This document shows, in pieces, positions 20,611-36,611 of a stretch of 60,182 bases of DNA. A program made the position numbers and the translations under genes. Below the pieces are notes generated by a model. The model had not been told where the DNA came from. It ran no database searches and saw only the letters and a program-made list of their open reading frames with translations. Position 1 is the stretch's first letter. Each line of letters opens with the position of its first letter. Origin of the DNA: Candidatus Terraquivivens tikiterensis (GTDB taxonomy: Archaea; Thermoproteota; Nitrososphaeria_A; Caldarchaeales; Wolframiiraptoraceae); NCBI GenBank assembly GCA_003056285.1, contig NDWU01000001.1, positions 101,236 through 161,417 of the forward strand, given 5' to 3'.

Positions 20611-20615
20611 AAATA

Positions 20616-20629
20616 GGTGGGCCGGGTGG
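20616..20629. repeat. Left attachment repeat (attR-like) of the island
   Basis: GGTGGGCCGGGTGG is a perfect 14-base copy of 33779-33792, which is the 3' end of tRNA-Val(TAC) including part of the encoded CCA. The bases on the island side differ afterwards. A shared 14-mer at exactly a tRNA 3' terminus, in the same orientation, is what site-specific integration into a tRNA gene leaves behind. Confidence 0.65.
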
Positions 20630-20766
20630 TATGTAATTAAAAAATTAAGTGAGTCCTTTTTGTTGATACTTTGGAAATGAATTGGGCGGGATGATTAGAT
20701 AAATTTTTAACCCCAAACCCAAAAAGGCATGCTGGAGTTTTATTTTGTAAAGTCTTTGCATTGCAA

Positions 20767-21332
20767 TTAGCTGGAGAGGTTCGAAGGTTTAAATGATTTT
20801 TCCCGCTGCATCTTTTTCCTTTGCTCGATTAGTAATTTAGCAATTTTTGCTCCGTTCCAAAGTTCGATACCATGTTTTATCGCTAATTCTCTTGCAGGTT
20901 TCGTAAAATCGGTTGTAGTGATATATATTCCCTTTTTTGCTTTATATTCGGTTATCATCATGCCAATGAATTTCTGAATTTCTGGCGAACTAACTTTTTG
21001 ACTCGTATATCTCTTGTATTGAACAATCACAGATTCTCCATTCGCATCCTTGCATGATATATCTCTGCTTAGATCACCTGACCCCCAGTCACTCTAACGT
21101 GCATATAGCCTAGATCTCCAAGCAGGGTTGCCATAGCCCTTTCAAACCGAGATGGAGTCGATGACATTAATTCCTGAAGGGTTTCAACTCTTATTTTATA
21201 GTACCTAGTATACCAAAAGATGAACAGAATAAGCGATAATGCCAGAAGCGGAAGCCCTATTAACGGATAAAGAATTGATAAGAAAACTAATATTATAAAG
21301 ATCAAAGCCCAACCATTACCTTTACGCTTCAC
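20767..21332 (-). pseudogene. Membrane-anchored Mrr-like restriction endonuclease, frameshifted
   Basis: Two overlapping reading frames together encode one protein of about 187 residues: two N-terminal transmembrane helices (FIILVFLSILY and LPLLALSLILFIFWY), a short linker, then a nuclease domain beginning FERAMATLLGDLGY. The catalytic pattern of the Mrr/RecB-like fold is present: an aspartate in SGDLSRDIS and Q-x-K in VQYKRY. The frame breaks in a run of five G/C at 21082-21086; one more base would restore VTGG-SGDLSRD. So the gene is either recently inactivated or carries a sequencing error. The role would be cleavage of foreign or modified DNA. Adjacent to the left boundary of the island. 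Confidence 0.7.
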
Positions 21333-21357
21333 ATGCGGTCACTTCTAGAGATAACTC

Positions 21358-21580
21358 TTAATAAACCAAGAAAATCTCTACTGTTTGACCTTCTTCGATG
21401 GTTATCCATGTGAATTCAAATGTTTCTGACTCACCCATATACAGGTTTTCTATTAAATCATAATCGTAGGTTCTAAAATCCGCAGAACCGTCTGGATTCC
21501 TCAGTATTAAATAGACATACACTTTCTCGATAGGTTTGTCGCCGATGTTTGTGATAGTTCCATTAACAGTCCACGACCAG
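21358..21580 (-). pseudogene. C-terminal fragment of a secreted-type beta-domain protein
   Basis: About 73 residues from SWTVNGTITNIGDKPIEKVYV to GQTVEIFLVY resemble the C-terminal half of a FxLYD/CARDB-like beta-sandwich (N-G-x-I-x-N-x-G-D-K-P pattern). Upstream of about 21580 the frame runs into sequence that makes sense only on the other strand, so the 5' part has been lost. Function unknown. Confidence 0.45.
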
Positions 21581-21587
21581 CGCGCGG

Positions 21588-21802
21588 GGAAAAGACAAGT
21601 TTTAAACCCTGAGAGGACAAGAGAGCTAACGGAAGAGCTTAACCGCCTCTTTGAAGCTAAGGTTGAAATTCCAAGGATCAGATGGGGTGAAAAACAAACC
21701 TTAGAAACTTTAATTAACGAAGAAGCTTTCTTGTTTGCTAAATATTTAAGAGGTGAACGTGAAGCATGGATTCCGAGGATTGTCATCCCAACTAACGATT
21801 AG
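21588..21802 (+). pseudogene. C-terminal fragment of an unrecognised protein
   Basis: About 70 residues, from KRQVLNPERTRELTEELN to IVIPTND, have the look of a real protein end (helical, charged, with a WGEKQTLETL motif) and end in a clean stop. The 5' side is cut at about 21585, exactly where the opposite-strand fragment is also cut. I do not recognise the family. Confidence 0.35.
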
Positions 21803-21812
21803 AGGTTAGAGT

Positions 21813-22396
21813 ATGGAAGTGGAAAAAGTAAAAAGAATCACGAAAGCTACGAAAGTTGCTCTGATTGTAACTATCATCCTCATAGTCATACTAATTTCGT
21901 ATATTATGTTTAATTGGTCTGGATCACCGTTTTATGATCCAGCAAGAAAGATTCCTTCCCCCCTATTATAAGGATGAGGGTTTTGTAGATAATACTTTAG
22001 AAAATTTTGGAAAATCTTCTAGTAAGGATGCCTATTCCGAATTATTACAAGGAAGGCGTGTTTGATTGTAGTGAGCGAAGCGCTTATGTCGAGTGGTATT
22101 TAGAGAATCATGGGATACCTGCACGCATTGTTGTAGGATATGCAAAGCCTTTCCTAGGAGAAGGTGGAAATCACGCTTGGGTTGAAGCCTATGTTAAAGC
22201 TGGAATTTACGGATACGGATGGGTAAGGATTGAAACTTCCGAAATGAGCTTATTTGGCGGAGTATACATTCACACCCTCACAATATTTGATGCTCTATTT
22301 ACAGAGTATGAACCAAAAATCTATTTTGAAGACATTTATGAGGCTGTTCGATATTACCGATCAACCATTGAATGGGACTGGTGGAATGTGGAATGA
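21813..22396 (+). pseudogene. Membrane-anchored transglutaminase-like protein, two frameshifts
   Basis: Three consecutive frames make one protein of about 190 residues. The first encodes a cytoplasmic start and a transmembrane helix (VALIVTIILIVILISYIMF). The second encodes PPYYKDEGFVDNTLENFGK. The third encodes the transglutaminase-like core with Cys in VFDCSERSAYVEWYLE, PARIVVGYAKPF and His in NHAWVEAYV, plus an acidic residue after WVRIE. Frame breaks fall in a run of six C at 21958-21963 and near 22005-22020. The Cys/His residues survive, so inactivation is recent or apparent. Such proteins act outside the cell as peptidases or cross-linkers. Confidence 0.65.
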
Positions 22397-22488
22397 TGGA
22401 ACAATTTTCTATGAATTAAGAATGTAAGCAGGAACAAAAGTATAACTGTGAAATATCGATTGATAAATCAATGAAACACCCACGTCTT

Positions 22489-22824
22489 TTAGTCTTCTAG
22501 GAAGCCCATCTGACTAAATGCCTTAATGACTTCTAACAACTTATTAGTCAGCGTATATGGACTAAAATATGTTATGATATTCTTCCTTTCAGTTCTATGC
22601 CTTTCTTGACACAAAACCTCCAATACGTAGAAATCTTTTTCAGATAAAGACCACATCTTGTTGTTAAGCACAATTAGCTTCTTTAAGGAGGGCTTTCCAC
22701 CTACATCATGAACAGTCTTAACCAGCTTATGAAGCCTTGTGCGTGTTGGGTTATTAGGACTATTGCGAGTGCTAGGCATGCGAATATTGATAGGTCTTTT
22801 GCGTTGATTGTTGAGAGGTTCCAT
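22489..22824 (-). CDS. Hypothetical protein, winged-helix-like end
   Basis: The usable part is about 80 residues starting around HDVGGKPSLKKLIVLNNKMWSLSEKDFYVLEVL and ending SQMGFLED. The pattern of short helices (SEKDFYVLEVLCQ, TLTNKLLEVIKAF) could be a small winged helix, but I recognise no family. The first ~40 codons overlap the membrane-protein gene at 22701-23105 in another frame and are probably not translated, so the real start is uncertain (an internal ATG at MWSLSEK is one choice). Last gene of the leftward secreted-protein cluster. Confidence 0.35.
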   Translation of the reverse strand: MEPLNNQRKRPINIRMPSTRNSPNNPTRTRLHKLVKTVHDVGGKPSLKKLIVLNNKMWSLSEKDFYVLEVLCQERHRTERKNIITYFSPYTLTNKLLEVIKAFSQMGFLED

Positions 22825-23105
22825 AGGTATTTTCCAACTTTCGTCAAGCTATTGCAGTATGGTTCAGAGTTTAGGTATCCCTTTAAAGTGTAGTATGCTC
22901 CGAAGATGAAGGCTAAGGATGTTAGGAAAACTATTGTGCTTGACAGGTGAGGGTTTAAACCGTAATGCATAAGGAGTCTAACGTAGGGGTTTGCTTCAGA
23001 CCATGCCGGATACCTGCTTAACCCGATCTGCGTAACTGCGTAGTCTAGTGAGTCTAAAATAATGGTTAAGGCGAAAACTGTTTTATATAATGTTTTGAAC
23101 TGCAT
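22701..23105 (-). CDS. Small polytopic membrane protein
   Basis: 134 residues with about four hydrophobic segments: VFALTIILDSLDYAVTQIGL, HLSSTIVFLTSLAFIFGAYY and IFACLALAIVLITQ, plus a weaker one. The first segment followed by SEANPYVRLLM resembles DUF5658-type archaeal membrane proteins (D-x-x-x-T followed by E-x-N-P). Function unknown. Lies between the secreted-protein gene at 23119 and the putative winged-helix gene, all leftward, so it is probably part of the same transcript. Confidence 0.55.
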   Translation of the reverse strand: MQFKTLYKTVFALTIILDSLDYAVTQIGLSRYPAWSEANPYVRLLMHYGLNPHLSSTIVFLTSLAFIFGAYYTLKGYLNSEPYCNSLTKVGKYLWNLSTINAKDLSIFACLALAIVLITQHAQGFISWLRLFMM

Positions 23106-23118
23106 GAAACCCGCCTGT

Positions 23119-23562
23119 TCAGGATTGTATCGTATAATTTAGAAGCCATTCATAATAGGTTTTAGGTGAAGTTAGGTTTAGGTTTGATTCCTCAGAAGCC
23201 CAAACTGCAACTGAAACTTCACCTTCGGCTGAAACGCTTCCAGCAACATAGTTCATGCGGACATCCACACAGTAATAGTCTTCGGGTAAGGTCACGTTTT
23301 TAACGGTTTCATCTAGAAGTTTAAGGGGTAAAGTTACAACGGCCCTAGCTTCGTCATGAATAACTATCTGCACAACAAGGCTTGTGAAGTGTTTCTCTAA
23401 AACGTCACACCCTAAAAGCTTGAAGAAAACTGTTAAATTCTGTTTTGGAACGTTTAGGTTGAAGGCTTCAGTTATGTTTATCCAGCCATGCGAGTTCGCT
23501 TGCAGGTTAACCGTATTAATATGCTGTATGTTCACGATGAGGGGGACGAGTTCATAGTTCAC
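23119..23562 (-). CDS. Secreted beta-rich protein; start uncertain
   Basis: 147 residues from a GTG at 23562, rich in beta-strand patterns and N-glycosylation sequons (NLT, NVT, NIT). In frame upstream there is a hydrophobic stretch that would make a fine signal anchor (KYLLALNFLLCSFLISSFG, to about 23655), but no ATG, GTG or TTG precedes it before the stop. So either a rare start codon is used, or the signal has been cut off. No known family. Third in the row of leftward secreted proteins. Confidence 0.5.
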   Translation of the reverse strand: MNYELVPLIVNIQHINTVNLQANSHGWINITEAFNLNVPKQNLTVFFKLLGCDVLEKHFTSLVVQIVIHDEARAVVTLPLKLLDETVKNVTLPEDYYCVDVRMNYVAGSVSAEGEVSVAVWASEESNLNLTSPKTYYEWLLNYTIQS

Positions 23563-23669
23563 AATCCACGGATAATTTTTGGTTCCAAATGAAGATATTA
23601 AAAATGAACATAGCAGAAAATTTAAAGCAAGTAAATATTTGAGGTAAGTAAAAAACTTCGGGATAGCAA

Positions 23670-24209
23670 TTATGAACCCTCAACAAACCATATTTGTATT
23701 GGAAAACTATCCTGAACAGTGCCTGTCACCGCTTTTGTCTGATATGTAACCTTAATTTTCACGTCGTAATGTCCCAGTTCCGAAGCAGAAAACATAATTT
23801 CAATTCTCAAATCCCCATCATAGACAGTCCCACCACTCACAATTGTTTTTTCGGCTTTCATAAGCACTCCTGAGAGATAGAACTCTACTTTTATCGACAA
23901 ATCCTCAAAAGCGTTCGCCATTTCAGGCTTAGACACTATCCTCAATTTTAACGTTCCAGGCTTTACGACTTCAACAAAAGTTGTTCCTATCAGTGTGTCA
24001 GTAGCTGTTGTTGCACCGCTCGTATTTATGTAAAAAGTCTTCGTTTCCGTTAAAGGCTTGATTGTGTAGCTAACTGACCAACTATAATATTGGGCTGCGT
24101 AAGAGCCCAAAATAATGAGCATAAACATTAAAGATATTACGAAAACAGGCTTTCTAACAAAACAAGATAAAATGTGGGAAAATTGGGGCTTCCTCAACTC
24201 GTTCCTCAC
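23670..24209 (-). CDS. Secreted beta-sandwich protein, paralogue of the 24220 gene
   Basis: 179 residues with an N-terminal signal anchor (VFVISLMFMLIILGSYA) followed by AAQYYSWSVSYTIKPLTETKTF and a beta-rich body ending IWFVEGS. The segment after the signal (QYYSW-SYTIKPL, then TSGATTATDT) lines up with QYYTW-SYSINPL and TSGATSGTY in the neighbour at 24220-24723, so the two are paralogues in tandem, 10 bases apart. The signal anchor followed directly by a beta domain is the layout of TasA/camelysin-like fibre subunits; that relation is only a guess from architecture. Confidence 0.55.
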   Translation of the reverse strand: MRNELRKPQFSHILSCFVRKPVFVISLMFMLIILGSYAAQYYSWSVSYTIKPLTETKTFYINTSGATTATDTLIGTTFVEVVKPGTLKLRIVSKPEMANAFEDLSIKVEFYLSGVLMKAEKTIVSGGTVYDGDLRIEIMFSASELGHYDVKIKVTYQTKAVTGTVQDSFPIQIWFVEGS

Positions 24210-24219
24210 CTCTATACTA

Positions 24220-24723
24220 CTACTCTACCGCGTAAGTGTTCACTGTAAAGGAACCACCTACTGTATCGGTAACAGCTCCTGTCCAATAATCGACAGTAAC
24301 GTATAGATCGTAACTTCCGCCTCCTACTCCATTGATGCTGACATCCAAAGTTGTTCCTGGTGCGCCATTAACAACTATGTGCATCGTTTGGCTACCAACG
24401 GTTCCCAATGTAAACGTTACATCAAGACTATAATAATCGTCTGCAAGCGCAGAAGCGTTGAAGCTGGTTACCATAAAATGCACGTTCACGGTCTTCCTTG
24501 AGGGCACGGAAATCGTTGCAATCGGAGATGTTGGCACGTAGGTTCCACTCGTTGCTCCCGACGTATCCGGAATCGTTATGTCTACGATGCTCGTTGCTAA
24601 TGGGTTAATACTGTAACTTGCAGTCCAAGTGTAATATTGCGATTCAAACGCCAGTCCTATTATTCCAGCCATCATTAAAGCAATAGCCAAAAAGCCCTTC
24701 TTTCCATTCAACAACTTAAACAT
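24220..24723 (-). CDS. Secreted beta-sandwich protein, first gene of surface-protein cluster
   Basis: 167 residues: positively charged start (FKLLNGKKG), one hydrophobic signal anchor (FLAIALMMAGIIGLAF), then a threonine/serine/glycine-rich beta domain ending SFTVNTYAVE. GGTGAA lies upstream of the ATG at 24723. Threonine-rich beta domains of this type form extracellular filaments or coats in several archaea, but I cannot name the family. It heads a leftward cluster of three secreted proteins, a membrane protein and a short basic protein. Confidence 0.55.
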   Translation of the reverse strand: MFKLLNGKKGFLAIALMMAGIIGLAFESQYYTWTASYSINPLATSIVDITIPDTSGATSGTYVPTSPIATISVPSRKTVNVHFMVTSFNASALADDYYSLDVTFTLGTVGSQTMHIVVNGAPGTTLDVSINGVGGGSYDLYVTVDYWTGAVTDTVGGSFTVNTYAVE

Positions 24724-24907
24724 TTAATTCACCTTTCTTATTGTTAGCTTTTGTTTCATCAAATTCTTTTTAAGAATTGTGGAATATTATGCTATCACAA
24801 TTTGCTGTCACATTATACCAGTATTTTGTCCTAGAACAATCTACCATCACAATATTCCTTAAAGCTTTTAAAATTTGGGTGCGAAATTTGCGTTTTGAGG
24901 GTTAAAC

Positions 24908-25319
24908 TTGAATGAACGCTTCTTCCTATACGTGGTCGAGGACGGTGAATGGCATAGGCTTGAGGATGTAGCCGAGGAGCTTGGAATATCCATTGGAAGG
25001 GTTAGGGATGCGGCTGAATACTTGGCTAGGGGAAAACTCGTCCATTACGATAGAGAGAGGTGAAGTAAAAATTCAAGATTGGCTTAAAAAGCTTCCGAGG
25101 GCTGAATGGGAGAAGCCAGGTGCGAAATCCACCGGAACAGTGGTGATATCTAAGGGTGGAAACGTCACACTTCAAGGAACAACCATATGTAATGAGACGG
25201 AACAAGATTTAGAGCTAATGTTCCTTGTAGTTGACGGAAAAATTAAAGAAATAACGATAAACAGGCTTCCAGAAACTAAAAACGAGCCTTCCCCCGTAAA
25301 CTCTCACGAAACTTTTTGA
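24908..25319 (+). pseudogene. Winged-helix protein split by a frameshift
   Basis: A TTG start at 24908 opens a 51-residue frame with a clear winged-helix start (WHRLEDVAEELGISIGRVRDAAEYLARGKL) that stops at 25063. Another frame immediately continues the protein from RGEVKIQDWLKKLPRAEWEKPG to NSHETF at 25319, with a threonine/glycine beta segment (TGTVVISKGGNVTLQGTT). One base lost or gained in GAGAGAGG at 25052-25060 would join them into about 135 residues. Probably a regulator for one of the adjacent divergent clusters, now broken unless the shift is a sequencing error. Confidence 0.5.
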
Positions 25320-25492
25320 AAAACTTAAGGGTTTCAACACCCCTAACCGTAGTCCTATAAACAACATCGCAAAAGAAGGAATAACATACGAAATAAACCC
25401 GTCACTAATATAAACATGTCCTAAAATCTCCAAGGCAAACACTCCACGCTAAAACAACAATTGGATATTTTAATTCCATTGTGGACAATATG

Positions 25493-25535
25493 GTGTTACG
25501 GAAAGAGAAAAGTTTATTACCATCTTTGGTAACAC
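25493..25535 (+). promoter_or_regulatory. Candidate operator and promoter of the metal-transport operon
   Basis: Two nested inverted repeats precede the transporter operon: TTACCA-TCTT-TGGTAA at 25517-25532, and GTGTTAC at 25493-25499 with GTAACAC at 25529-25535. A TATA-like GTTTATTA lies at 25512-25519, so a protein bound here would cover the promoter. The arrangement suits a metal-dependent repressor such as a NikR, DtxR or Fur-like protein; which one cannot be told. Confidence 0.45.
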
Positions 25536-25560
25536 AAAATTCTAAAAAAGTAATACGAAA

Positions 25561-26727
25561 GTGGTTGTCATGAATGCCCGTAAGGTTTGGATATGCGTGG
25601 TAGTAATTGTTATAGCGTTGGTGGCCGGATTAGCGGCCGCATTTTATTATACCAGAATGTTGGGTTATAAAGAGGAAGTCGGGCCGATCGTGGTCACAGA
25701 CCTCGCTGGTAGAACCCTAACATTTGAGAAACCTGTCGAGCGAATAATACTGCAATATAGCGGAAGTGGTGGCGCCTTCTACACCTTATTTGCCTTGGAA
25801 GGCAGGGATGCCTATAAAAGAATCGTTGGTATCGACCCCGGATTGAAGAAGTACCGGTACGACATATGGCAAGAGTTTGTCAAGGTCATTCCGGAGTTAG
25901 AAAACATACCTGACGTTGGAAGCATTGAGGATGGAACATTTGGTGTTGAGAAAGTCATTTCCTTGAGACCAGACGTCGTCATAATTCCTTTATGCTCAAA
26001 GGATGGAGCTGAAGACATAATTAAAAAACTGGAGGAGGCTAAAATAAAGACAGTTTTCATTGATTACCATGCTGAAACAATAGAGAATCATGTAAAGAGC
26101 ATTACCTTATTAGGAAAAATTTTGGGGAAAGAGGAAAGGGCTAAGGAGCTTATAGATTTTTACGTAGGGCATGTTAACGAAGTATATTCTCGTTTAGAGA
26201 AGATAAACAAGACAAAGCCAAAAGTCTACGTGGAATGCGGCATGAAAGGGCCGTCTGAATATGGTAATACCTACGGCAGCAACTTCATGTGGGGCGCATT
26301 GATTGTTAAGTGTGGAGGAATAAACATTGCTGAAGGCAAAGTGCAAACTTGGGCTCCAATAAACCCAGAATATCTCCTATCTGCGAATCCAGACGTGATC
26401 ATCATAACGGGCGCTTATTGGCCTGCTTATCCCACTTCATTCAGGCTTGGGTTTAACGCCACGTTAGAAAAAGCGAGAGATAGCCTCAGACTATTCACGG
26501 AACGCCCAGGCTGGGAAGCGCTCAACGCTGTGAGGAATCATAGAGTCTACGGCATCTATCATGGTCTTTCAAGAGATATTTGGGACTTTGCACCTATAGA
26601 ATTCATGGCAAAATGCTTCTATCCAGATGAGTTTAAAGATATAGACCCTGAAAAGGACCTCAAAGAGTTCTTTGAACGATTTCTGCCCATACCCTATTCC
26701 GGAGTTTGGATGATGTCTTTATGGTAA
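25561..26727 (+). CDS. ABC transporter substrate-binding protein, siderophore/cobalamin/metal-chelate type
   Basis: Extracytoplasmic binding lipoprotein-like or signal-anchored protein, 388 residues, of the FecB/BtuF fold (Peripla_BP_2). A transmembrane start (VWICVVVIVIALVAGLAAAFYY) anchors it. Core landmarks: VVTDLAGRTLTFEKPVERII at the front, VISLRPDVVIIP (about residue 140), VYVECG near the domain hinge, and NPDVIIITG with RPGWEALNAVRNHRVYGI in the C-lobe. The ligand would be a metal chelate or corrinoid. First gene of a rightward operon with permease, ATPase, DUF4198-like protein and two methyltransferases. Start GTG at 25561 or ATG at 25570. Confidence 0.88.
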   Translation: MVVMNARKVWICVVVIVIALVAGLAAAFYYTRMLGYKEEVGPIVVTDLAGRTLTFEKPVERIILQYSGSGGAFYTLFALEGRDAYKRIVGIDPGLKKYRYDIWQEFVKVIPELENIPDVGSIEDGTFGVEKVISLRPDVVIIPLCSKDGAEDIIKKLEEAKIKTVFIDYHAETIENHVKSITLLGKILGKEERAKELIDFYVGHVNEVYSRLEKINKTKPKVYVECGMKGPSEYGNTYGSNFMWGALIVKCGGINIAEGKVQTWAPINPEYLLSANPDVIIITGAYWPAYPTSFRLGFNATLEKARDSLRLFTERPGWEALNAVRNHRVYGIYHGLSRDIWDFAPIEFMAKCFYPDEFKDIDPEKDLKEFFERFLPIPYSGVWMMSLW

Positions 26728-26772
26728 CACTACATGAACAACATGGCTTTCATAAAATAGTGGCAATGAGCA

Positions 26773-27870
26773 TTGATGGCGGCTTTAAGCGAGGTCATAA
26801 AAATGTGTTTGAGGGTGATGGCAGTAAAGGAAACGAAGGGTAAAGAGCTTTACAAGAAAATAGTGTGGCGAAAACTTGTACTGGTGATTTCGCTTGCAGT
26901 CACGTGCGCGCTTACATTACTATTAGACATTTCAACGGGGCCTTCACAGCTTTCGCTTTTTGAAGTATTTTCCACCATTATTTCGCCAAATCATAGCGAC
27001 CCTGTCACTCATACCATCATTTGGACTATAAGATTGCCAATGGCTTTAATGGCGATCGTCGTTGGTGCAGCGCTCGGCGTTGCGGGTGCGGAAATGCAGA
27101 CAATCCTCAACAACCCTCTGGCAAGCCCTTATACACTTGGCGTATCTGCTGGGGCAGGGTTTGGTGCCGCACTGGCAATTGTCCTCGGCGCAGGAGTTAT
27201 TCCGTATATCGGTGAATTCGTCACATCCATTAATGCATTCATCTTCTCTTTGCTCACATGTCTATTGATTTATCTTATCGCCAAGGCAGGGAGAATGGCT
27301 GCGGAGACAATGATACTTGCTGGGATTGCAGTAACGCTCTTGTTCCATTCACTTTTAGCTTTGCTTGAATATATTGCCTCACCAGAAGCTTTACAGGCAA
27401 TAGTTTTTTGGCTTTTCGGAAGCCTCACAAAGGCGACATTGCTGAAAGTAGGTATCACGTCTGTAGGTTTGCTCGCTGTCGTCGCATTTCTCTCCACAAG
27501 AGTCTGGAGATTAACCGCTTTGAGGCTGGGAGACGAGAAAGCTAAGAGTTTAGGAATAAATGTTGAAAAGTTAAGGTTAGAAGTATTTATATGCGTTTCT
27601 CTTCTCACAGCTGTTGCAGTGTGCTTTGTTGGGACAATAGGGTTCATAGGGCTCGTAGGTCCACATATAGCGAGAATGTGTGTAGGGGAGGAACAGAGGT
27701 TTTTCCTACCAATGTCGCTTCTCGGCGGTGCCGTTACGCTTTCAGCGGCATCAGTCATTAGTAAATTAGTTGTACCCGGCATCTATTTCCCAATTGGAAT
27801 AATCACTTCTTTAATAGGTCTCCCATTCTTTCTTTCAATAATCCTCATGAAAAGGAGGGGATACTGGTGA
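26773..27870 (+). CDS. FecCD-family ABC transporter permease
   Basis: Inner-membrane permease of the iron-siderophore/cobalamin class, up to 365 residues, with about ten transmembrane helices. Family marks: IRLPMALMAIVVGAALGVAGAEMQ, NNPLASPYTLGVSAGAGFGAA, and, near the end, GTIGFIGLVGPHIARMCVGEEQRFFLP. An N-terminal extension before the first helix is unusual; an internal ATG at 26818 (AVKETKG) may be the true start. Its stop overlaps the start of the ATPase gene by four bases. Confidence 0.92.
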   Translation: MMAALSEVIKMCLRVMAVKETKGKELYKKIVWRKLVLVISLAVTCALTLLLDISTGPSQLSLFEVFSTIISPNHSDPVTHTIIWTIRLPMALMAIVVGAALGVAGAEMQTILNNPLASPYTLGVSAGAGFGAALAIVLGAGVIPYIGEFVTSINAFIFSLLTCLLIYLIAKAGRMAAETMILAGIAVTLLFHSLLALLEYIASPEALQAIVFWLFGSLTKATLLKVGITSVGLLAVVAFLSTRVWRLTALRLGDEKAKSLGINVEKLRLEVFICVSLLTAVAVCFVGTIGFIGLVGPHIARMCVGEEQRFFLPMSLLGGAVTLSAASVISKLVVPGIYFPIGIITSLIGLPFFLSIILMKRRGYW

Positions 27871-28664
27871 GTTTAGAAGTGCGCAATTTAAGCTTCTCTT
27901 ACGGTGCAACGAGTGTCTTAAAAAATATCAACATGAAACCTTTGCCCGGAAAAATAACGGCAATCATAGGCCCAAACGCCTCAGGGAAGACGACGCTCCT
28001 TAAATGCATATGTGGGATCTTGAAGCCGATAGAGGGAAGTGTTCTATTTGAGGGGAGGGAGATAAGCAAAATCAGAAAAGAAGAGCTTGCAAAGCACATA
28101 GCTTACATGCCACAAGAAAATCCCGCGGTAGCGTTTTTAACAGTGTTCGAAACGGTGCTTCTTGGAAGACTGCATTCTTTGTCTTGGAGGGTTAGCGACG
28201 AGGATCTTGAAATGACCCTAAAAACGTTGGAAAGCTTGGGGATTAGCGAGCTATCATCGAGATTTCTCTCCGAACTCAGTGCAGGGCAACGACAGCTGGT
28301 CTACATAGCACAAGCAGTCGTTCATCAGCCTAGAGTGCTTCTTTTGGACGAACCCACAAGCAATCTGGACCTTCAGCACCAGCTAGAGGTTCTTGACCTC
28401 ATAAAGGAGCTGACATCTGAAATGAGAATTACAACAATTATCGCTTTGCATGACCTCAATTTGGCGGCTAAATATTCCGATGAAGTAATTGTGCTGAACT
28501 TTGGCAGAGTTTACGCTGCAGGAAAGCCGGAATCAGTATTGTCTGAAGACATGTTGAGAGCAGTTTACGGAGTCAGTGCCAAGGTTAACGCTCACGATGG
28601 GGTGCTTCAAATAACAATACTCAACTCTATCAGAAAACGACTTGCCAAGAAAAAATGTGGCTGA
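27867..28664 (+). CDS. ABC transporter ATP-binding protein, FecE/BtuD type
   Basis: ATPase of the metal-chelate transporter, 265 residues. Walker A GPNASGKTTLL, Q-loop in YMPQENP, signature LSAGQRQL, Walker B VLLLDEPTSNLD and switch His in ALHDLN are all intact. Starts with GTG overlapping the permease stop and preceded by GGAGGGG, so translation is coupled. The basic C-terminal tail extends slightly beyond the usual end. Confidence 0.94.
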   Translation: MSLEVRNLSFSYGATSVLKNINMKPLPGKITAIIGPNASGKTTLLKCICGILKPIEGSVLFEGREISKIRKEELAKHIAYMPQENPAVAFLTVFETVLLGRLHSLSWRVSDEDLEMTLKTLESLGISELSSRFLSELSAGQRQLVYIAQAVVHQPRVLLLDEPTSNLDLQHQLEVLDLIKELTSEMRITTIIALHDLNLAAKYSDEVIVLNFGRVYAAGKPESVLSEDMLRAVYGVSAKVNAHDGVLQITILNSIRKRLAKKKCG

Positions 28665-28675
28665 GGAGGAAAAAG

Positions 28676-29449
28676 ATGAGAGAAAGGAGCTGGAAGAGTC
28701 CTTGGGGAAAAAATAGCAATCATGTAATATGGCTAGAGCCAAACAAAGCAGCGTACAATGTGAATGAGGATGTCGAGATAAAAGTATTCTGGGGCAGTGT
28801 TCGAAATCCAGAAGTCGGAGAATACGAGGATTGGCTTGCGTATCTGCTTGATCCCGAAGGCGCGCGTTTAGAGTTGCCCATAAGACGAGAAATGCTACGA
28901 TTTAGTGGTGGAAAACCATTTTTCTTCCTTGCCTTTAAACCAAGGAAGAGCGGACCCTACACAATAATGCTGGAGAACAATTATGGAGTTCTGAACAAAC
29001 TTAAAGATGGAGACTGGACTTATGGTCCGAAAAGATACCATAGAAACGTCGAGGAAAGCATATATTTCTATCAGTATGCAAAGACCATAGTTCCAGTGGG
29101 AGAGTCAACTCAGGGATCCACAAGGGTTGGGAATGAGCTGGAGATAATCACAACAAAAACAGGGTTTTATGTAAACGATATCATGGAACTTACATTACTT
29201 TGTCGAGGGTCGCCACTTCCCCGAGCCCAGATTAAAGCGGTATACGGTATTTACCCCCACATAAAAGAAGAGACTGCAGAGACAGACATGAATGGAAAAG
29301 CTGGATTTCATATTAAAGAAAAAGGAGTCTGGCTGTTTGTTGCAGAACACAAAATTATGGAGGGGGTAGATGGTGAATATGATTACAAGTGGCTCACGGC
29401 AACTCTTTCACTACCGGTACGAGGGATAAAGAATGCAAAACATGATTGA
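28676..29449 (+). CDS. DUF4198-like (COG5266-type) protein without signal peptide
   Basis: 257 residues from the ATG at 28676, which has GGAGG seven bases upstream. The body has two beta-sandwich-like parts: HVIWLEPNKAAYNVNEDVEIKVFWG at the front, and, after an SAPV-like linker, GNELEIITTKTGFYVNDIMELTLLCRGSPL followed by TDMNGKAGFHIKEKGVWLFVAEHK. This resembles DUF4198 proteins, linked to cobalt/nickel uptake and normally exported. Here the N-terminus (MRERSWKSPWGKNSN) has no hydrophobic signal, so it would stay in the cytoplasm or use another anchor. Its 3' end overlaps the first methyltransferase gene by 17 bases. Confidence 0.6.
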   Translation: MRERSWKSPWGKNSNHVIWLEPNKAAYNVNEDVEIKVFWGSVRNPEVGEYEDWLAYLLDPEGARLELPIRREMLRFSGGKPFFFLAFKPRKSGPYTIMLENNYGVLNKLKDGDWTYGPKRYHRNVEESIYFYQYAKTIVPVGESTQGSTRVGNELEIITTKTGFYVNDIMELTLLCRGSPLPRAQIKAVYGIYPHIKEETAETDMNGKAGFHIKEKGVWLFVAEHKIMEGVDGEYDYKWLTATLSLPVRGIKNAKHD

Positions 29450-30251
29450 TTGGGAAAAAGAGTGGAAAGAAAAGACAAGGGAAGAGAAGAAGAACGCCAG
29501 CAGACTGGATTTGCTCGACTACTGGAATAAAAGGGCTGAAGATTACACAGACTATATAAAAACAAGCAATTATGAGCACGGTAGAAAAATAGTGGAGCTC
29601 TTTGAAAGAGAGGGAATATTGAAACCCGAATTCGAAGTTCTCGACATTGGTGCTGGGCCTGGATCGGTTTCCATACCCTTTGCGGAGGTTGTGAAGAAAG
29701 TAACAGCAATAGAGCCTTCAAGCGAAATGGTTAAGCGCTTAATGAAAAATGCCGCGGAGAAAGGCCTTAAAAATATTGAGGTGATAAATAAGAAATGGGA
29801 AGAGGTGAATACTTCCGAGTTTGAGGCAAAATTTGACCTAGTAGTCGCTTCGCATGTTACATGGCTTTTCGAAGATATCGTAGATTTCATAATGAGGATG
29901 AATCGCGTATCAAGAAAATATTGTTGTATTGCCGAAGGCATTTTCTCTAATAGAAATTGGGGCAATGTTTACAAAGAATTGAAAATAACCCCACAAACAT
30001 TCGACCGTTTCATTTACATATACAATATTCTGTACCAGAGAGGCATACCCGCCAACGTTAAGATAATCGATACCCTTATGAGACGTTCTGTGCAATCCGC
30101 AATAAGCATGTTTGAACTTTTTCTCAGCAAGTACAGAGAGCCGACGGATGAGGATAGGAAAATTATCAGAAATCATGTGCTTATGAACTCTGAGGACGGC
30201 ATATACAAGAAAGAAGGGAAGATGGCGGTAGTGTGGTGGCGGAAAGAATGA
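29433..30251 (+). CDS. Class I SAM-dependent methyltransferase
   Basis: 272 residues. SAM-binding motif I is VLDIGAGPGSVSIPFAE (about residue 70), motif II VTAIEPSSEMVKRL, and the later FDLVVASHVTWLFEDIVDFI gives motifs III/IV. The N-terminal SRLDLLDYWNKRAEDYTDYI segment occurs in small-molecule methyltransferases associated with metal-transport operons of archaea. The substrate is unknown. The start overlaps the preceding gene, so expression is coupled to transport. Confidence 0.85.
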   Translation: MQNMIDWEKEWKEKTREEKKNASRLDLLDYWNKRAEDYTDYIKTSNYEHGRKIVELFEREGILKPEFEVLDIGAGPGSVSIPFAEVVKKVTAIEPSSEMVKRLMKNAAEKGLKNIEVINKKWEEVNTSEFEAKFDLVVASHVTWLFEDIVDFIMRMNRVSRKYCCIAEGIFSNRNWGNVYKELKITPQTFDRFIYIYNILYQRGIPANVKIIDTLMRRSVQSAISMFELFLSKYREPTDEDRKIIRNHVLMNSEDGIYKKEGKMAVVWWRKE

Positions 30252-30279
30252 ATGCCTCCCTTTGTGAAAGGTGATGTCA

Positions 30280-31212
30280 ATGAAAGTATACGATGTTGTG
30301 CGGAGATACTGGAATGAGCAAGGAGCGCAAATTTATGATAGGATAAACTGGATTAATCGGGAGAAAATGAAAGAGACGCTGCTCAAGTATCTGGGTATAG
30401 ACAAAAAAGGTGTTATACTCGATTTTGGAACTGGTACAGGATTTCTTGCGTCAATATTGGCTGAAGCGGGTTACAAAAAGATCATAGGTGTAGACATAAA
30501 CGAGCATATGCTCCATATAGCAAAGGAAAAATTGGCAGGTTACTCTGTGAAATTGGTGCAAGGCGATGGACTACATCTGCCAATTGCAGATAATTCAATA
30601 GACGCTGTTGTAAGCAGGTGGGTTCTCTGGGTGATGCCTAACCCGGAAAGGGCGATAGAGGAAATGGTAAGAGTAACAAGACCTGGGGGTGTAATCCTTA
30701 CACTTGAAAGCGATAACGCTAAGGAATGGAAAAAGCCGTCCCTACGAAGGAAACTTTCAGGCTTTCCGATTAGGCATTTATATTCGCTCTACTTGGAGAA
30801 AGTCTTAGGAAAACATAGAGGTCTTACCACAAAGCAATTTTGGAAAGAAACCGAAGGAAAGCTGCCACTATACTCTCTTGACGAGTATGTCAAAATATTC
30901 AATCAGAAAGGTCTTATGCATATAGTGAGAACGGATGAAGAAGATTATGGAACACTACGTGCAAAATTGGTTTTTGGTGGTTTCAAATTCTCATTAATCA
31001 GAGGCATCAAACCTGGCAGGACAAGTAAAGGCATAACAAGAAATCAAGAATGGGAGGAGAACGAGTTACTAAGAATTATAGTGTGCCCACTATGCCATTC
31101 AAGTTTAGCGATAAAGGACGAAATAGGATATGAATGCAAGCGATGTGGTAAAACTTATCCAATAAAACATGAGATACCAATTTTGCTTCCCCCAGAAGAT
31201 TTACTCCAATAA
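30280..31212 (+). CDS. SAM-dependent methyltransferase with C-terminal zinc ribbon
   Basis: About 310 residues. A UbiE/MenG-like fold: VILDFGTGTGFLASILAEAG (motif I), IIGVDINEHML, then SIDAVVSRWVLWVMPNPERAIEEMVRVTRPGG. The last ~50 residues carry a Trm112-like ribbon, CPLCHS and CKRCGKTYPI, ending IPILLPPEDLL. Fusion of such a ribbon to a small-molecule methyltransferase is uncommon. AAAGGTGA sits eight bases before the ATG at 30280. Last gene of the metal-transport operon; 28 nt after the first methyltransferase. Confidence 0.85.
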   Translation: MKVYDVVRRYWNEQGAQIYDRINWINREKMKETLLKYLGIDKKGVILDFGTGTGFLASILAEAGYKKIIGVDINEHMLHIAKEKLAGYSVKLVQGDGLHLPIADNSIDAVVSRWVLWVMPNPERAIEEMVRVTRPGGVILTLESDNAKEWKKPSLRRKLSGFPIRHLYSLYLEKVLGKHRGLTTKQFWKETEGKLPLYSLDEYVKIFNQKGLMHIVRTDEEDYGTLRAKLVFGGFKFSLIRGIKPGRTSKGITRNQEWEENELLRIIVCPLCHSSLAIKDEIGYECKRCGKTYPIKHEIPILLPPEDLLQ

Positions 31213-31328
31213 GCAAAACAATTAAATAATTTTGAGATACTGCAACGAAAAATTCCTTTCAAGATAATCCGCGAAAATTCTGTTAGTAACGTATAACCGA
31301 AATGAGGGAGGCGTAAAACAGTAGTCTA

Positions 31329-31439
31329 TTATGATTTTGATGCGGCGATTCCTGCGAGGATTATGGAGGCCATAATTATCCAAAAGAGGCATGCGAGGGC
31401 ATGGGTAGCGGAGGCTGTAATCTCCTCAAACATCTCCAT
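31329..31439 (-). CDS. Possible small single-helix membrane protein
   Basis: A 36-residue frame with acidic start (MEMFEEITASATHAL) and one hydrophobic helix (LACLFWIIMASIILAGIAA). A TATA-like TTTTAAATC lies about 20-25 bases upstream on the same strand, which would give a leaderless message. No homologue is recognised. The rest of 31213-31603 shows nothing else. Confidence 0.3.
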   Translation of the reverse strand: MEMFEEITASATHALACLFWIIMASIILAGIAASKS

Positions 31440-31603
31440 CAGCTCAAAAAGATTTAAAATCGGTTGGCTTTTAAGTGATGTTTCAGTTGAGAAAATAGCT
31501 CGAGTTTTGATATGTCTTTTAATATGCTGAGAGATGTTTTAGGTTCTAAATGTTTGTTGATTTCTCACGGTTACTTTTAGTTCTGTGCCCTTCTCCGGTT
31601 CCT

Positions 31604-32150
31604 TCAAGTTTTTAGGTATTCTTTAACACGCTTAACCAGTTGCTTATCTGTTTGGAGCATGGCCACAACTATTCGGAAGCGAACTTCTGTTAGGTTCGCT
31701 TCGCCTTTTACAACATCCCGCACGGTTATCGCTCGCTTCATATCTGTTGCTTCGGAAATTCCGCGCTTTTCTTTTATGCTTCCCTGCGCCTTTCCCCTTC
31801 TTTTCAGTCGAACTCCCCCACGTGGAAGCATAGCGTTCAGCTTTGCGGATGAAATGCGTGAACTGGAATGTTTTTGTTTCTTTATATTTTAAGCCCATGT
31901 TGGAGTAGAGCTCCCTCACGATTGCTTTTAGCAGTAGCTGAGCTCCTAGACCAAAGATTTTTTCAAGGGCGGCAGCAAACTTTTCGGGATTCTTATACCA
32001 CATGTCCCTCTTTATCCCGGAGGCTTTTTCTATGTAGTAATATGTTGCCTGCCTCCCAGTCTCCCCCAATAGAAGCATAGCCCCCATCAACCGCTGAAAT
32101 AAATAGTTCTTCGAAGGATGAATCTGAAACTTTAGAGAACCCTTGTCCAA
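31604..32150 (-). pseudogene. Unrecognised protein, apparently frameshifted
   Basis: Two overlapping leftward frames. The upstream one (from 32150) encodes LKFQIHPSKNYLFQRLMG, GRQATYYYIEKASGIKRDMWYKN and FGLGAQLLLKAIVRELY, a helical protein of about 110 residues before turning into a basic nonsense tail. The other, ending at 31604, encodes TDMKRAITVRDVVKGEANLTEVRFRIVVAMLQTDKQLVKRVKEYL, which looks genuine. The shift would be near 31800-31850. I do not recognise the family. Confidence 0.4.
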
Positions 32151-32179
32151 AGGTATCTCCTTTTAATTACAAGAATTTA

Positions 32180-32207
32180 GGTATATAATTAAAAGATTAA
32201 GTGAATC
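32180..32207. repeat. Near-copy of the island left-end sequence (20628-20655)
   Basis: GGTATATAATTAAAAGATTA and the next eight bases match 20628-20655 (GGTATGTAATTAAAAAATTA and onward) at 25 of 28 positions, in the same orientation. The left copy starts at the end of the 14-base attachment repeat. This suggests duplicated element ends or a composite island. Confidence 0.45.
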
Positions 32208-32756
32208 TCTCTTTAAAAGAGAGGGGCGATTGGTGGGAGGAGGTAGCTCGTTTTCAAATCCTCCTGATGCTCTACAGGAGATTTCAGTCTAGATACTTAT
32301 GTAGATGAGGGGGTTGCCCAAGGGTATAGAGTATTTCTTCCCCTCCATAGATCCCCAACCTATTTCTCAGCCCTCTTCTACCGGTGCTTCCAATATACAA
32401 TACCCCCTCCGTCTATGCCTAAAACCCTACAAATGGTGATGGCCTCCCTCCTCTAATCCAAAAGACGATATATACACCAGAATCATCAGGCACATCCTCG
32501 AAGTTTTTTAATGAAAGCCTTATGAGCGGCTCCAAAGTTAAGGGACTCATCGTGCTTTCAGCGGTAATAGATGGCCGAAGCAAAGTTCTTGAATTTTATG
32601 GTGACCGATAGCTAGGCGAGGAGCGTTTAACATTAGTAACCTCAAAAGGAGTTTTAGAAAATGATGGCCTTGTATAAAAGGCCGTTTAAAAAGCGTTTTA
32701 CCGTCCTACCGGCTTCCAGCCGTCCTTAATTAATGGTTTCCGTATACCCCTAAAAG

Positions 32757-32885
32757 TGGATAAATTTATCCATTTAAGCGCCCTCTCGTATTCTTAGCTT
32801 TATTCAACCCTTTGTAAAATACTGAAGTGGTTAAATTTAACCACTAAAACATAATGTTGGTATTCTTAATGGGTAAAATTTTACC
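32757..32885. promoter_or_regulatory. Cluster of three perfect AT-core palindromes
   Basis: TGGATAAATTTATCCA (32757-32772), AGTGGTTAAATTTAACCACT (32826-32845) and GGTAAAATTTTACC (32872-32885) are perfect palindromes sharing a GG...AATT...CC plan, spaced 71 and 43 bases centre to centre. Such sets are typical of operator arrays, partition sites or plasmid origins. No gene for a cognate protein is adjacent, so the role is open. Confidence 0.5.
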
Positions 32886-33100
32886 TGTAAGTAACAGCTC
32901 TGCATGTTCGTGAACTACAAAAATACCATTCATGTTAGAGACACGTTAATTCTGTTTTCGCCCTCACCATTATGTTTAACATATCATCTACAAAGTAAAA
33001 GTCGGAATCGCTTATAACGTTTATGAGGAATGTTGATAACGCTCTTACGTCCATCATATGGCTTTCTTTAGGAGTGTAACCTAAAAGCCCAGAAGGAGTA

Positions 33101-33419
33101 ATGAAGGCTTTTTTGCTTCAGTGTTTCCTATGCATTCCTTCTGAGAGGGTTTTAGCTGAAAAGCTGGCTAAATGCAGGGATTACAGGCGGATTTGCGGTT
33201 TTAGGCGTAAAACGCCAAGCAGGGGCTGCTTTACATATTTTAGGCGGAACCGTTTCAAGGAATAAAGGTTCAGGGAGGCTTTCAATTTCATGGTTGGTCA
33301 GGCCATAGCCTTAGGCGCTGTTAAGGGCTACGTTTTAGCTATCGATTCAACAGCCTTTAAGACTTACAGCGCCAGAGACGCAAAGAAGGTAAAGTCTGAT
33401 CCGGATGCGGATGTTCACC
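33101..33419 (+). pseudogene. IS5/IS4-like transposase remnant
   Basis: The frame reads MKAFLLQCFLCIPSERVLAEK, KCRDYRRICGF and FTYFRRNRFKE, then an in-frame TAA near 33265, and continues in the same frame REAFNFMVGQAIALG...GYVLAIDSTAFKTYSARDAKKVKSDPDADV. The AIDSTAFK segment carries the first catalytic aspartate of a DDE transposase. Similarity ends at about 33415, where the DNA becomes the integrase gene of the other strand. So the transposase has a stop codon and lacks its C-terminal half. Confidence 0.65.
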
Positions 33420-33731
33420 TTAAGCTTAACGTTCAAACCGTTGTACGAAAACCAGGAGTGGAGGGCCTTCTTGAACCTCGCTATGTAGGAGCCGGCCTTC
33501 CCCCTCCCCCTCGAGCCTCCTCACGAAGTCGCTGAAACTGTCCCTGAAGTCCTTCGTTCCGGCGGCTCTCAATATGCTCTTAGGGTCGGTCCTGTTCAGC
33601 TCGCAGAATAGGCCCAGGGTCCTGAGGTAGACTGTGGGCGTAACGTAGGACTTGGCGGCGAGGTTCTCGAACCACCTCTTCACGTCCTCGTCCTTCAGCA
33701 GGTCCTTATACTTGGCCTTCTCCATAACCAA
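33412..33731 (-). pseudogene. Archaeal tyrosine-recombinase (integrase) N-terminal part, frameshifted and truncated
   Basis: The first ~77 residues (YKDLLKDEDVKRWFENLAAK, TPTVYLRTLGLFCELNRTDP, DFVRRLEGEG) are the SAM-like N-terminal domain of archaeal XerC-like integrases. One extra G in the GAGGGGGAGGGGG tract near 33498-33510 shifts the frame; the next frame continues KAGSYIARFKKALHSWFSYN and LNVKLKVN until it meets the transposase remnant. The catalytic domain is missing. The gene starts about 50 bases from the tRNA end of the island, where an integrase belongs. Confidence 0.65.
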
Positions 33732-33778
33732 GGAATGTTATATTTAGGGTTTATTTAAGGTATTCACTTAAAAATTTT

Positions 33779-33792
33779 GGTGGGCCGGGTGG
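33779..33792. repeat. Right attachment repeat (attL-like), in tRNA-Val(TAC) 3' end
   Basis: GGTGGGCCGGGTGG on the plus strand; complement of the acceptor 3' strand plus encoded CC of the tRNA. Perfect match to 20616-20629. Confidence 0.65.
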
Positions 33793-33853
33793 GACTCGAA
33801 CCCACGACCTCTGCCTCGTAAGGGCAGCGTCATAGCCGCTAGACCACCGGCCC
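33781..33853 (-). tRNA. tRNA-Val (anticodon TAC)
   Basis: A 73-base tRNA on the minus strand: acceptor GGGCCGG/CCGGCCC, D arm GTCT...TGAC, anticodon stem CTGCC/GGCAG around loop CTTACGA (anticodon TAC), variable AGGTC, T arm GTGGG-TTCGAGT-CCCAC, discriminator A, and genomic CCA at 33778-33780. No intron. The 3' end is one attachment repeat of the genomic island; the gene is intact. Confidence 0.95.
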
Positions 33854-34000: not shown

Positions 34001-35551
34001 ATGAGGCCTCAGAGGGTATTGGTAATAGACTTCGGCGGGCAGTATGCTCACCTTATAGCCAGGAGGTGCAGGGAGCTCGGCGTGTACTCCGAGATAGTGC
34101 CCTTCACGACCCCGCTTGAGGAGGCCTTTTCTGGATGCTACGAGACCCTCGGCATCATACTATCCGGAGGCCCCCGGAGCGTCGACGATCCAGGTGCTCC
34201 GAGGCTCTCGGCCGAGGGCTTATCGAGGGTTCCAGTCCCGGTCCTCGGCATATGCTATGGCCACCAGCTTATAGCACGTGCTTTCGGCGGAGAGGTCGAG
34301 CATGGAAGCCTCATGGAATACGGCCGGACCTCCGTTAGAATCGTCGAGCGGGACGTCCTGTTTATGGACGTGCCGGAGCAGTTCGTCGCATGGATGAGCC
34401 ACGCGGATTCCGTGGTAAGGGTGCCGCCAGGCTTTAACGTCCTGGCGTTGACCGAAAGGGGTGCCGTGGCCGCTATGAGGCATGCTGAGAGGCCGGTCTA
34501 CGGCGTCCAGTTCCACCCCGAGGTTAGGCACACGCAGATGGGGAGCGCAATCCTCAAGAGGTTCTTGGCGGACGTTTGCGGCTTTAGATGCGATTGGAGG
34601 CCGATGGACAGGGTGGAGGAGCTGAGCAGGGAGATAGCAGAAACGGTTCCGCCGGACGAGCACGTTGTCTGCGCGGTCAGCGGCGGCGTAGACTCCGTCA
34701 CGACTGCGGTCCTCCTAAGCAGGACGCTAGGAGGAAGGCTCCACTGCATATTCGTAGACCACGGCTTGATGAGGAAGGGCGAGCCTGAGCAAGTCGTCTC
34801 GACCTTAAGGCGCATGGGCATAATAAACCTCGTATTCGTGAGGGCAGCGGACAGGTTCCTTTCCAGGCTTAAGGGCGTGAAGGACCCTGAGGAGAAGAGG
34901 AGGATAATCGGCGAGGAGTTCGCGAGGGTATTCGAGGAGGAGGCTGCCAAGATACCCAAGGCCCGTTGGCTTGCTCAGGGTACGATCTATCCTGACAGGA
35001 TAGAGAGCGGCCTCGCAGGTTCCGGCTCCGCTTTGATCAAGACGCACCATAACGTGGCAGGCCTTCCTGCTGGCTTGAGGCTTAGGCTCGTGGAGCCTCT
35101 CAGGGACCTTTACAAGGACGAGGTCAGGGAGGTTGCGAGGAGCCTCGGCATACCAGAGGAGATAGCATCCCGCCACCCGTTTCCAGGACCTGGTCTGGCC
35201 GTCAGGATAATCGGCGAGGTCACGGAGGAGAAGCTCAGGGTATGCAGGGAGGCCAACGCGATAGTAGAGGAGGAGTTCAAGAGGGCCGGAGTTTATGACA
35301 AGGTTTGGCAGGCATTCGCCGTAGTAACCGACAGCACTTGGACGGGTGTGATGGGCGACGTTAGGGCCGAGGGCTACGTGGTAATAGTAAGGGCAGTAGA
35401 GAGCGAGGACGGGATGACGGCTGACTGGTACAGGCCGGACATGGAGCTAATCGACAGGATATCCAAAAGGATAGTGAACGAGGTAGGTAACGTGACGATG
35501 GTTGCCTACGCCACGACACCAAAGCCGCCGAGCACGATAGAGCCATGTTAG
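34001..35551 (+). CDS. guaA: GMP synthase (glutamine-hydrolysing), single-chain
   Basis: Converts XMP to GMP using glutamine; 516 residues. N-terminal glutamine amidotransferase with catalytic Cys in GICYGHQ and His/Glu in VQFHPEV; ATP pyrophosphatase loop SGGVDSVTTAVLL near 225; C-terminal dimer domain with FPGPGLAVRIIGEVTEEKLRV and the terminal KPPSTIE. Both halves are in one polypeptide, whereas many euryarchaea have them split. Start ATG at 34001. It stands alone just beyond the tRNA and converges on the DUF2148 gene. Confidence 0.96.
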   Translation: MRPQRVLVIDFGGQYAHLIARRCRELGVYSEIVPFTTPLEEAFSGCYETLGIILSGGPRSVDDPGAPRLSAEGLSRVPVPVLGICYGHQLIARAFGGEVEHGSLMEYGRTSVRIVERDVLFMDVPEQFVAWMSHADSVVRVPPGFNVLALTERGAVAAMRHAERPVYGVQFHPEVRHTQMGSAILKRFLADVCGFRCDWRPMDRVEELSREIAETVPPDEHVVCAVSGGVDSVTTAVLLSRTLGGRLHCIFVDHGLMRKGEPEQVVSTLRRMGIINLVFVRAADRFLSRLKGVKDPEEKRRIIGEEFARVFEEEAAKIPKARWLAQGTIYPDRIESGLAGSGSALIKTHHNVAGLPAGLRLRLVEPLRDLYKDEVREVARSLGIPEEIASRHPFPGPGLAVRIIGEVTEEKLRVCREANAIVEEEFKRAGVYDKVWQAFAVVTDSTWTGVMGDVRAEGYVVIVRAVESEDGMTADWYRPDMELIDRISKRIVNEVGNVTMVAYATTPKPPSTIEPC

Positions 35552-35553
35552 CT

Positions 35554-36093: not shown

Positions 36094-36183
36094 GGGTAAA
36101 CACCAGGCTACGCATAAGAGCTGTTGTGGGCTTCGAATTAAAGCTTATTGATTAGCTATTTTAAAAATAACAAGAAAGCGGAT

Positions 36184-36600: not shown

Positions 36601-36611
36601 CGTGCTAAAAC

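Follow-up and report, generated by a model that had tools for sequence, protein, structure and literature searches.

A probable tRNA-inserted island with a decayed integrase and an open transport operon in Candidatus Terraquivivens tikiterensis

We analyzed a stretch of 60,182 nucleotides, hereafter called the window, from the archaeon Candidatus Terraquivivens tikiterensis (assembly GCA_003056285.1, contig NDWU01000001.1), and focused on an island of around 13 kb located next to a valine tRNA gene. The island very probably corresponds to the decayed remains of a mobile element inserted by a tyrosine recombinase at the 3' end of tRNA-Val(TAC). It is an ordinary kind of element, a cryptic integrated element, whose borders are unusually well preserved, whose integrase has decayed, and whose foreign operon has remained open. 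An earlier note on this DNA had proposed a tRNA-inserted island. The proposal is supported by the target at the tRNA 3' end, an integrase remnant facing the tRNA, foreign cargo, and a break in composition, as well as by inward motifs at both borders and by a similarly built element in genome G047 that appears intact. Positions are given in window coordinates; G000 is the source genome itself (an assembly of 1,536,389 bases) and G001 to G005 are its congeners.

The target gene, tRNA-Val(TAC), was placed by ARAGORN at 33778..33853 on the minus strand (33781-33853 according to Rfam). Its final 14 bases (33779..33792), reaching the CC of CCA, constitute the tRNA-side copy of a core, GGTGGGCCGGGTGG, and this putative attachment (att) site keeps the tRNA intact. 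A repeat search found the integrase-distal copy, an exact match to the tRNA 3' end, at 20616..20629 on the plus strand. This confirms the 14-base direct repeat previously described: the entire assembly contains two exact copies of the 14-mer, both at the island borders. There is no third copy with one mismatch or fewer in the window, for an expectation of 0.00 in shuffled sequences. The reversed-pattern control of the assembly-wide search carried no information, as reversing the 14-mer yields the identical sequence. The G+C content is 0.414 at 20630-33777, against 0.549 at 1-20615 and 0.542 at 33854-60182, and it is fairly even within the island (0.39-0.46 per kb across 21-33 kb). The A+T-rich shift claimed between the copies thus exists, with edges that do not fully coincide with the repeats: the last 347 bp within the right border are intermediate (0.522), and the left fall begins outside the repeat. 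The drop in gene quality that was also claimed is seen in the left third and at 31.2-33.4 kb, but not at 25.5-31.2 kb, where six consecutive genes are open. No relative lacking the repeat showed the same gene order, and there is a composition break at the borders, the displacement of the left one notwithstanding.

The broken integrase reported beside the tRNA is real. Reading of the frames and matches to open relatives delimited a remnant at 33407..33731 (minus strand), consisting of the N-terminal part with one frameshift; the catalytic part is lost. It begins 47 bp past the tRNA with frame 33426-33731 (minus), is continued after the frameshift by a frame around 33407-33520, and stops where a transposase-like stretch (33086-33415) starts. 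Neither the catalytic part nor an int(C) segment was found anywhere in the window. The frames match the N-terminal part of open tyrosine recombinases of 449 codons in G001 and 442 codons in G047, with 41-42% identity, and these begin around 50 bp beyond the 3' end of tRNA-Ala(CGC) and of tRNA-Lys(CTT), respectively. The remnant had matches in 8 of 61 genomes (own genome included) and the full-length G047 protein in 18; many of these matches are weak or involve other integrases. Two intact relatives (P0001 and P0002), read by eye, show the order R, YxxR, Y (LRPQS; YVLR; GHKGDIEARY) in the part that is missing from the window remnant, an order also reported for the NOB8 plasmid integrase (PMC5495485). 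The G047 integrase matches the NCBIfam archaeal XerA (2.9e-9) and Pfam PF00589 (8.5e-5), both below cut-off, the G001 integrase has no Pfam match, and a PHROGs search of one intact relative gave no match. The G047 protein has no relative in phages, plasmids, or the viral_contigs collection, and its search against the PDB returned just two weak matches, to superoxide dismutases. We also considered a split integrase of the type I found in Sulfolobus spindle-shaped virus (SSV), and rejected it: the core sits outside the gene, 47 bp away from where the integrase starts, its relatives in G001 and G047 are not split, and no int(C) was found in the window. Elsewhere in G000, two more decayed integrases of the same family lie beside tRNA 3' ends (contig C31, 5906-6732, locus L150; contig C14, 1454-1876, locus L154), and an open integrase-like frame of 433 codons is found at C31:59944.

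The same integrase family is associated in G047 with an apparently intact element of around 7.3 kb at tRNA-Lys(CTT) (L039, 5807-13103). Its cores, at 5807 and 13084 of L039, are 7,277 bp apart and read AATCCCTTCAG(G/A)CCCGCCAT, i.e., one mismatch in 20 positions. Near the G001 tRNA-Ala and the tRNAs of C31 and C14, we found no second core copy of more than 9 bases in the DNA scanned; the G001 contig stops 6.8 kb past the tRNA.

Comparison of the borders revealed motifs beside the cores, which we propose to be arm-type sites. The inward motif next to the distal core is TATGTAATTAAAAAATTAAGTGAGTCC (20630..20656, plus strand), and the one next to the tRNA-side core is TTAAGTGAAT (33762..33771, minus strand), where the sequence directly inside the core, read inward, is AAAATTTTTAAGTGAATACC. 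The G047 element has TTAGGTGC facing inward at each end. TTRRGTG points inward at both ends of both elements, an orientation that would match the one expected of arm sites in an attP. In a post hoc test on six flanks (integrase-side flanks of the window, C31, G001, and G047; distal flanks of the window and G047), the best shared 8-mer fitted all six in the same orientation with a total of 5 mismatches, against at least 10 in 100 sets of flanks drawn at random from the same DNA. Within 30 nt past a tRNA 3' end, TTRRGTG occurs in 4 of the 31 tRNA rows of the scanned loci (29 distinct genes, with a few doubtful intron calls), and all four are beside an integrase gene or remnant. Six tRNAs have an integrase start behind them; among these, the one in G058 is without the motif and the one on C14 has TTAAGCG. 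This variant is also present where a conserved flank (flank A, see below) meets the tRNA in G002, G003, and G005, where no integrase was seen, and is absent at the corresponding place in G001 and G004. A similarity search detected a third copy of the left border motif at 32180..32207 (plus strand; 89% over 28 nt), which may be an old border or the promoter of frame 31644-32162. A literature search turned up, judging by titles, no account of arm-type sites in the attP of an archaeal integrase, which is not proof that none has been described. The candidate motif could offer a means to recognize decayed elements of this tRNA-targeting integrase family.

The cargo consists of six consecutive open genes (25561-31212), all on the plus strand. 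They encode a substrate-binding protein of a siderophore/heme/corrinoid-type ATP-binding cassette (ABC) transporter (Peripla_BP_2; 25561..26727; PF01497, 3.6e-25), a FecCD-type permease (26773..27870; PF01032, 1.5e-85), the ATPase of the same transporter (27867..28664; PF00005, 5.8e-34), a DUF4198 protein (28655..29449; PF10670, 2.9e-25), and two class I S-adenosylmethionine methyltransferases recognized by Pfam (29433-30251 and 30271-31212), the second of which has a Trm112-like tail that scores under the Pfam cut-off. Matches to transporter families are spread over importers of siderophores, heme, B12, and F420-0, all below the cut-offs shown. We read the operon, which looks intact, as encoding a putative metal-chelate or corrinoid-type ABC importer.

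The nearest relative of the permease, best among the 80 loci kept from genome_contigs, is in Desulfallas sp. Bu1-1 (L047; 71% identity). There, the binding protein, permease, ATPase, and methyltransferases follow the same order, and identity is 64% for the binding protein and 61% and 55% for the methyltransferases (55-71% over the four). Unlike the island, Desulfallas has one extra methyltransferase-like gene in between, by reading, and a weakly DUF4198-like gene upstream of the operon (7.4e-4, below cut-off). In a sample of 300 genomes of the phylum, the DUF4198 protein is found in its own genome only. The binding protein matches 27 of these genomes (own included) at E<=1e-20, the best at 38% besides itself, with no match in the other genomes of the genus and family listed in the sample. 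A tree of FecCD permeases was built from the window sequence plus 29 of the 80 loci (30 rows). In it, the window joins nothing at starred support and the backbone is weakly supported, such that the nearest row, Desulfallas, is alone informative. Because of this weak backbone, donor group and direction of transfer are taken from identity and distribution, which suggest that the operon was acquired from outside the lineage, with Desulfallas as its closest match. The case would show a little-studied archaeal lineage gaining an apparently bacterial-type uptake operon by way of a tRNA-inserted element.

A plausible history starts from an attP in which a 14-bp copy of the tRNA end was flanked by two inward arm motifs. 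Recombination between this attP and the tRNA would have rebuilt a complete tRNA at one border, leaving the other core copy behind at 20616-20629. The integrase gene would have come to lie directly inside the tRNA-side border, directed away from the tRNA, a position in which integration would therefore not have split it. A frameshift and a transposase-derived insertion or deletion may later have removed the catalytic part, and the island would therefore no longer be able to excise itself. The six-gene operon would have come from outside the lineage, stayed open, and probably become a trait of the host.

The island resembles the cryptic integrated elements of Thaumarchaeota described by Krupovic et al. 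2019 (PMC6563490) in its tyrosine recombinase, its tRNA 3' end target, its short repeats, and the lack of hallmark virus or conjugation genes. That account gives a median att length of 17 bp, down to 8, and places 39 of the 68 elements with defined sites in tRNA genes. Unlike the elements described there, the island has a broken integrase and a Bacillota-like transport operon. Badel et al. 2021 (PMC8371274) report that certain archaeal elements have sites as short as 8, 11, or 13 bp. As in the classical type II pNOB8-like integrases of that review, the att site is outside the gene, and the integrases of the open relatives remain whole next to the tRNA. In contrast to the Sulfolobales pNOB8 integrases, for which it gives cores of 40-50 bp, the cores here span 14-20 bp. 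A further difference from the classical pNOB8-like integrases is that two intact relatives have no Pfam match above cut-off, nor any PHROGs match for the one tried.

Several observations weigh against an element inserted at the tRNA or fail to add support for it. An empty site joining 20615 to 33793 was not seen. In all five congeners, which are 78-82% identical to G000 DNA over five genes, the two flanks are apart. On the left, ilvC (18584-19564, plus strand; Pfam and congener comparison) and its upstream genes are collinear as far as the ilvC end, within the extent of each stretch, and are followed by an EcfT transporter block that in G000 lies on contig C36. On the right, the congeners keep tRNA-Val(TAC) with guaA and two further genes (34001..37127, plus strand), with other neighbors on the tRNA 3' side (the G002 contig ends 410 bp past the tRNA). 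Since ilvC precedes another block and tRNA-Val-guaA lies elsewhere in all five, the predicted junction is not seen in any of them. The left fall in G+C begins at the ilvC end (0.469 at 19565-20186), around 1 kb outside the repeat. Pfam and PHROGs scans of the island proteins recognized no gene for replication, conjugation, or virions. The G046 integrase, 44% identical, is built differently: there is no tRNA at its start, and a tRNA-Lys without the motif, called in intron mode only, lies near its other end. As for the motifs, the 8-mer test omits two of the six integrase-side flanks, that of G058 (no motif) and that of C14 (variant). A 13-mer pairwise border test was not significant alone, since 350 of 4000 random pairs did as well as the window borders and 354 of 4000 as well as those of G047. 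Finally, the motif copy at 32180-32207 has no core beside it.

The best-surviving alternative, which we nonetheless consider unlikely, is a composite island, in which the same tRNA received at least two insertions in succession. One of them would survive as the 1.6 kb at 32180-33778, with the motif at 32180 as its own distal motif, the cargo would come from another, and the 14-mers would be the outermost borders only. The orientation of the third border motif, which is that of a left end, would fit such a history, as would the debris of several mobile elements at 32.7-33.4 kb and the differing state of the decayed left third and the open operon. The fairly even G+C content speaks against it, together with the missing core beside that motif and the lack of a second integrase seen nearby.

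It is considerably less probable that the 14-mer is no attL at all, being instead a tRNA-end fragment left at the breakpoint of a rearrangement in which recombination at tRNA 3' ends joined the ilvC side to tRNA-Val. Because ilvC and tRNA-Val-guaA are apart in all five congeners, some rearrangement must have occurred between the lineage of G000 and theirs, and inversions with breakpoints at tRNA ends do occur in the genus. A possible reciprocal break exists on C36, where EcfT adjoins a gene that has 62% identity to a neighbor of tRNA-Val in G004; this is not decisive, because the gene family is multi-copy. A simple rearrangement would not account for an inward motif at both borders, an integrase remnant where one is expected, the apparently intact example in G047, or the foreign cargo that fills the interval. 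That the 14-mer is a chance match and the A+T-rich stretch an ordinary variable region is hardly credible: the tRNA end is G+C-rich and of low complexity, and 9-13-base matches to tRNA ends surround most of the seven tRNAs scanned, but the zero expectation in shuffles and the limitation to two copies in 1.54 Mb, along with the integrase and the border motif, bear out the earlier judgment that chance is very unlikely.

The most interesting side result is an inversion bounded by tRNAs in the congeners. In G001-G005 (L009-L013), a segment of around 6 kb containing guaA lies between tRNA-Val(TAC) and a second tRNA, both with their 3' ends outward. This second tRNA contains an intron and reads as tRNA-Val(GAC) when the intron is removed (with the intron in, the names given by ARAGORN vary). 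In G001 and G005, the segment runs in the opposite orientation to that of G002-G004, and the breakpoints fall at the tRNA 3' ends. Flank A, which comprises TFE and TrmJ-like genes plus TauE where present, is at the GAC tRNA in G002, G003, and G004; it is on the TAC tRNA side in G005, and also in G001, behind around 8 kb of other genes. Conversely, SufD-SufC are at the TAC tRNA in G003 and at the GAC tRNA in G001 and G005. They were not found within the G002 and G004 stretches; on the TAC side, G004 has a large gene 63% related to the one beyond SufDC in G003. Both junctions are on a single contig in G001, G003, and G005. As guaA adjoins the TAC tRNA in all five congeners, the crossovers must have taken place in or after the 3' parts of the tRNAs, which share 21 of 24 bases (G000 copies). 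G001 and G005 are sisters (bootstrap 94), hence a single inversion event suffices. In G000, part of the segment is in the window and part on contig C14, where the GAC tRNA is likewise followed by an integrase remnant.

An integrase may have caused the inversion. A similar proposal exists for Thermococcales, where inversion ends at different tRNA genes were proposed from synteny (Cossu et al. 2017, PMC5495485), and the congener inversion likewise ends at two tRNA genes. According to that work, the pTN3 integrase inverts DNA in vitro between identical segments down to 104 bp, and a tRNA-Leu/tRNA-Thr pair of Thermococcus failed in vitro. Unlike the pTN3 segments, the tRNA 3' ends here are identical over 21 of 24 bases. 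Crossovers within this 24-nt end would also involve far less identity than the 500 bp with which homologous recombination has been observed in Thermococcus kodakarensis, as cited in PMC5495485. If an integrase made the inversion, the association of integrases with chromosome flipping known from Thermococcales would also hold in this lineage, with shorter sites than have been shown to function there. More broadly, one integrase family of the genus, characterized by a core at tRNA 3' ends and an inward TTRRGTG arm, could insert elements, flip the chromosome between tRNA genes, and have moved tRNA-Val beside ilvC; we regard this broader scenario as possible, if rather doubtful.

In the left third of the island, an Mrr-type nuclease (type IV restriction-like; 20767..21338, minus strand; PF04471, 9.1e-18; mREase_IV, 5.5e-15), whose N-terminus includes a hydrophobic stretch, is split over two frames near 21.08 kb, and a transglutaminase-like protein (21810..22396, plus strand; PF01841, 4.7e-9) has broken frames. 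By frame reading, 22701..24723 (minus strand) encodes a small hydrophobic protein along with three proteins that look secreted and have a hydrophobic stretch at the N-terminus. The latter are in tandem (23119-24723) and have no Pfam match; in a three-way alignment, the second and third are 34% and 15% identical to the first. No relative of the protein at 24220-24720 was detected at E<=0.001 among the remaining 299 of the 300 phylum genomes, and its sequence (24220-24723) has no match in the PDB. A pilin-like fold was considered for the secreted proteins and rejected, as the model was poor (mean predicted local distance difference test, pLDDT, of 61) and its PDB matches were taken as meaningless. 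Pfam showed no capsid, terminase, conjugation, or relaxase gene in 19 proteins of the island and its flanks (integrase remnant excluded), and PHROGs gave, for 8 other island frames, one match to a family of unknown function and no virion or conjugation gene. In viral_contigs, pattern-seeded scans, which detect close relatives only, found none for the integrase remnant, the 24220 protein, or the DUF4198 protein; an exact copy of the tRNA-side border was also absent from this collection.

Near the tRNA, a transposase-like remnant identified by frame reading (33086..33415, plus strand) has no Pfam match and a 95% copy at G000:C8:61-390. A dispersed repeat at 32757..32908 has whole or partial copies at 89-95% (one at 78%) on contigs C34, C17, C33, and C25. 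A second one lies at 32673-32744, and copies of both on C17, C25, C33, and C34 are mostly at 89-96%; we read the two repeats as resembling miniature inverted-repeat transposable elements. A GIY-YIG-like remnant near 32284-32595 was recognized by eye only. In the left flank, a MazE-type antitoxin and a PIN-domain protein identified by Pfam (19863-20587, plus strand) form an A+T-rich pair between ilvC and the left core, without match in the ilvC loci of the five congeners, and are possibly an older insertion. In the right flank, synteny with the congeners ends at 37127, and an intron-containing tRNA found by Rfam and missed by the default ARAGORN scan lies at 37604-37708. The congener loci hold TFE, exosome, and proteasome genes, an archaeal gene content by reading.

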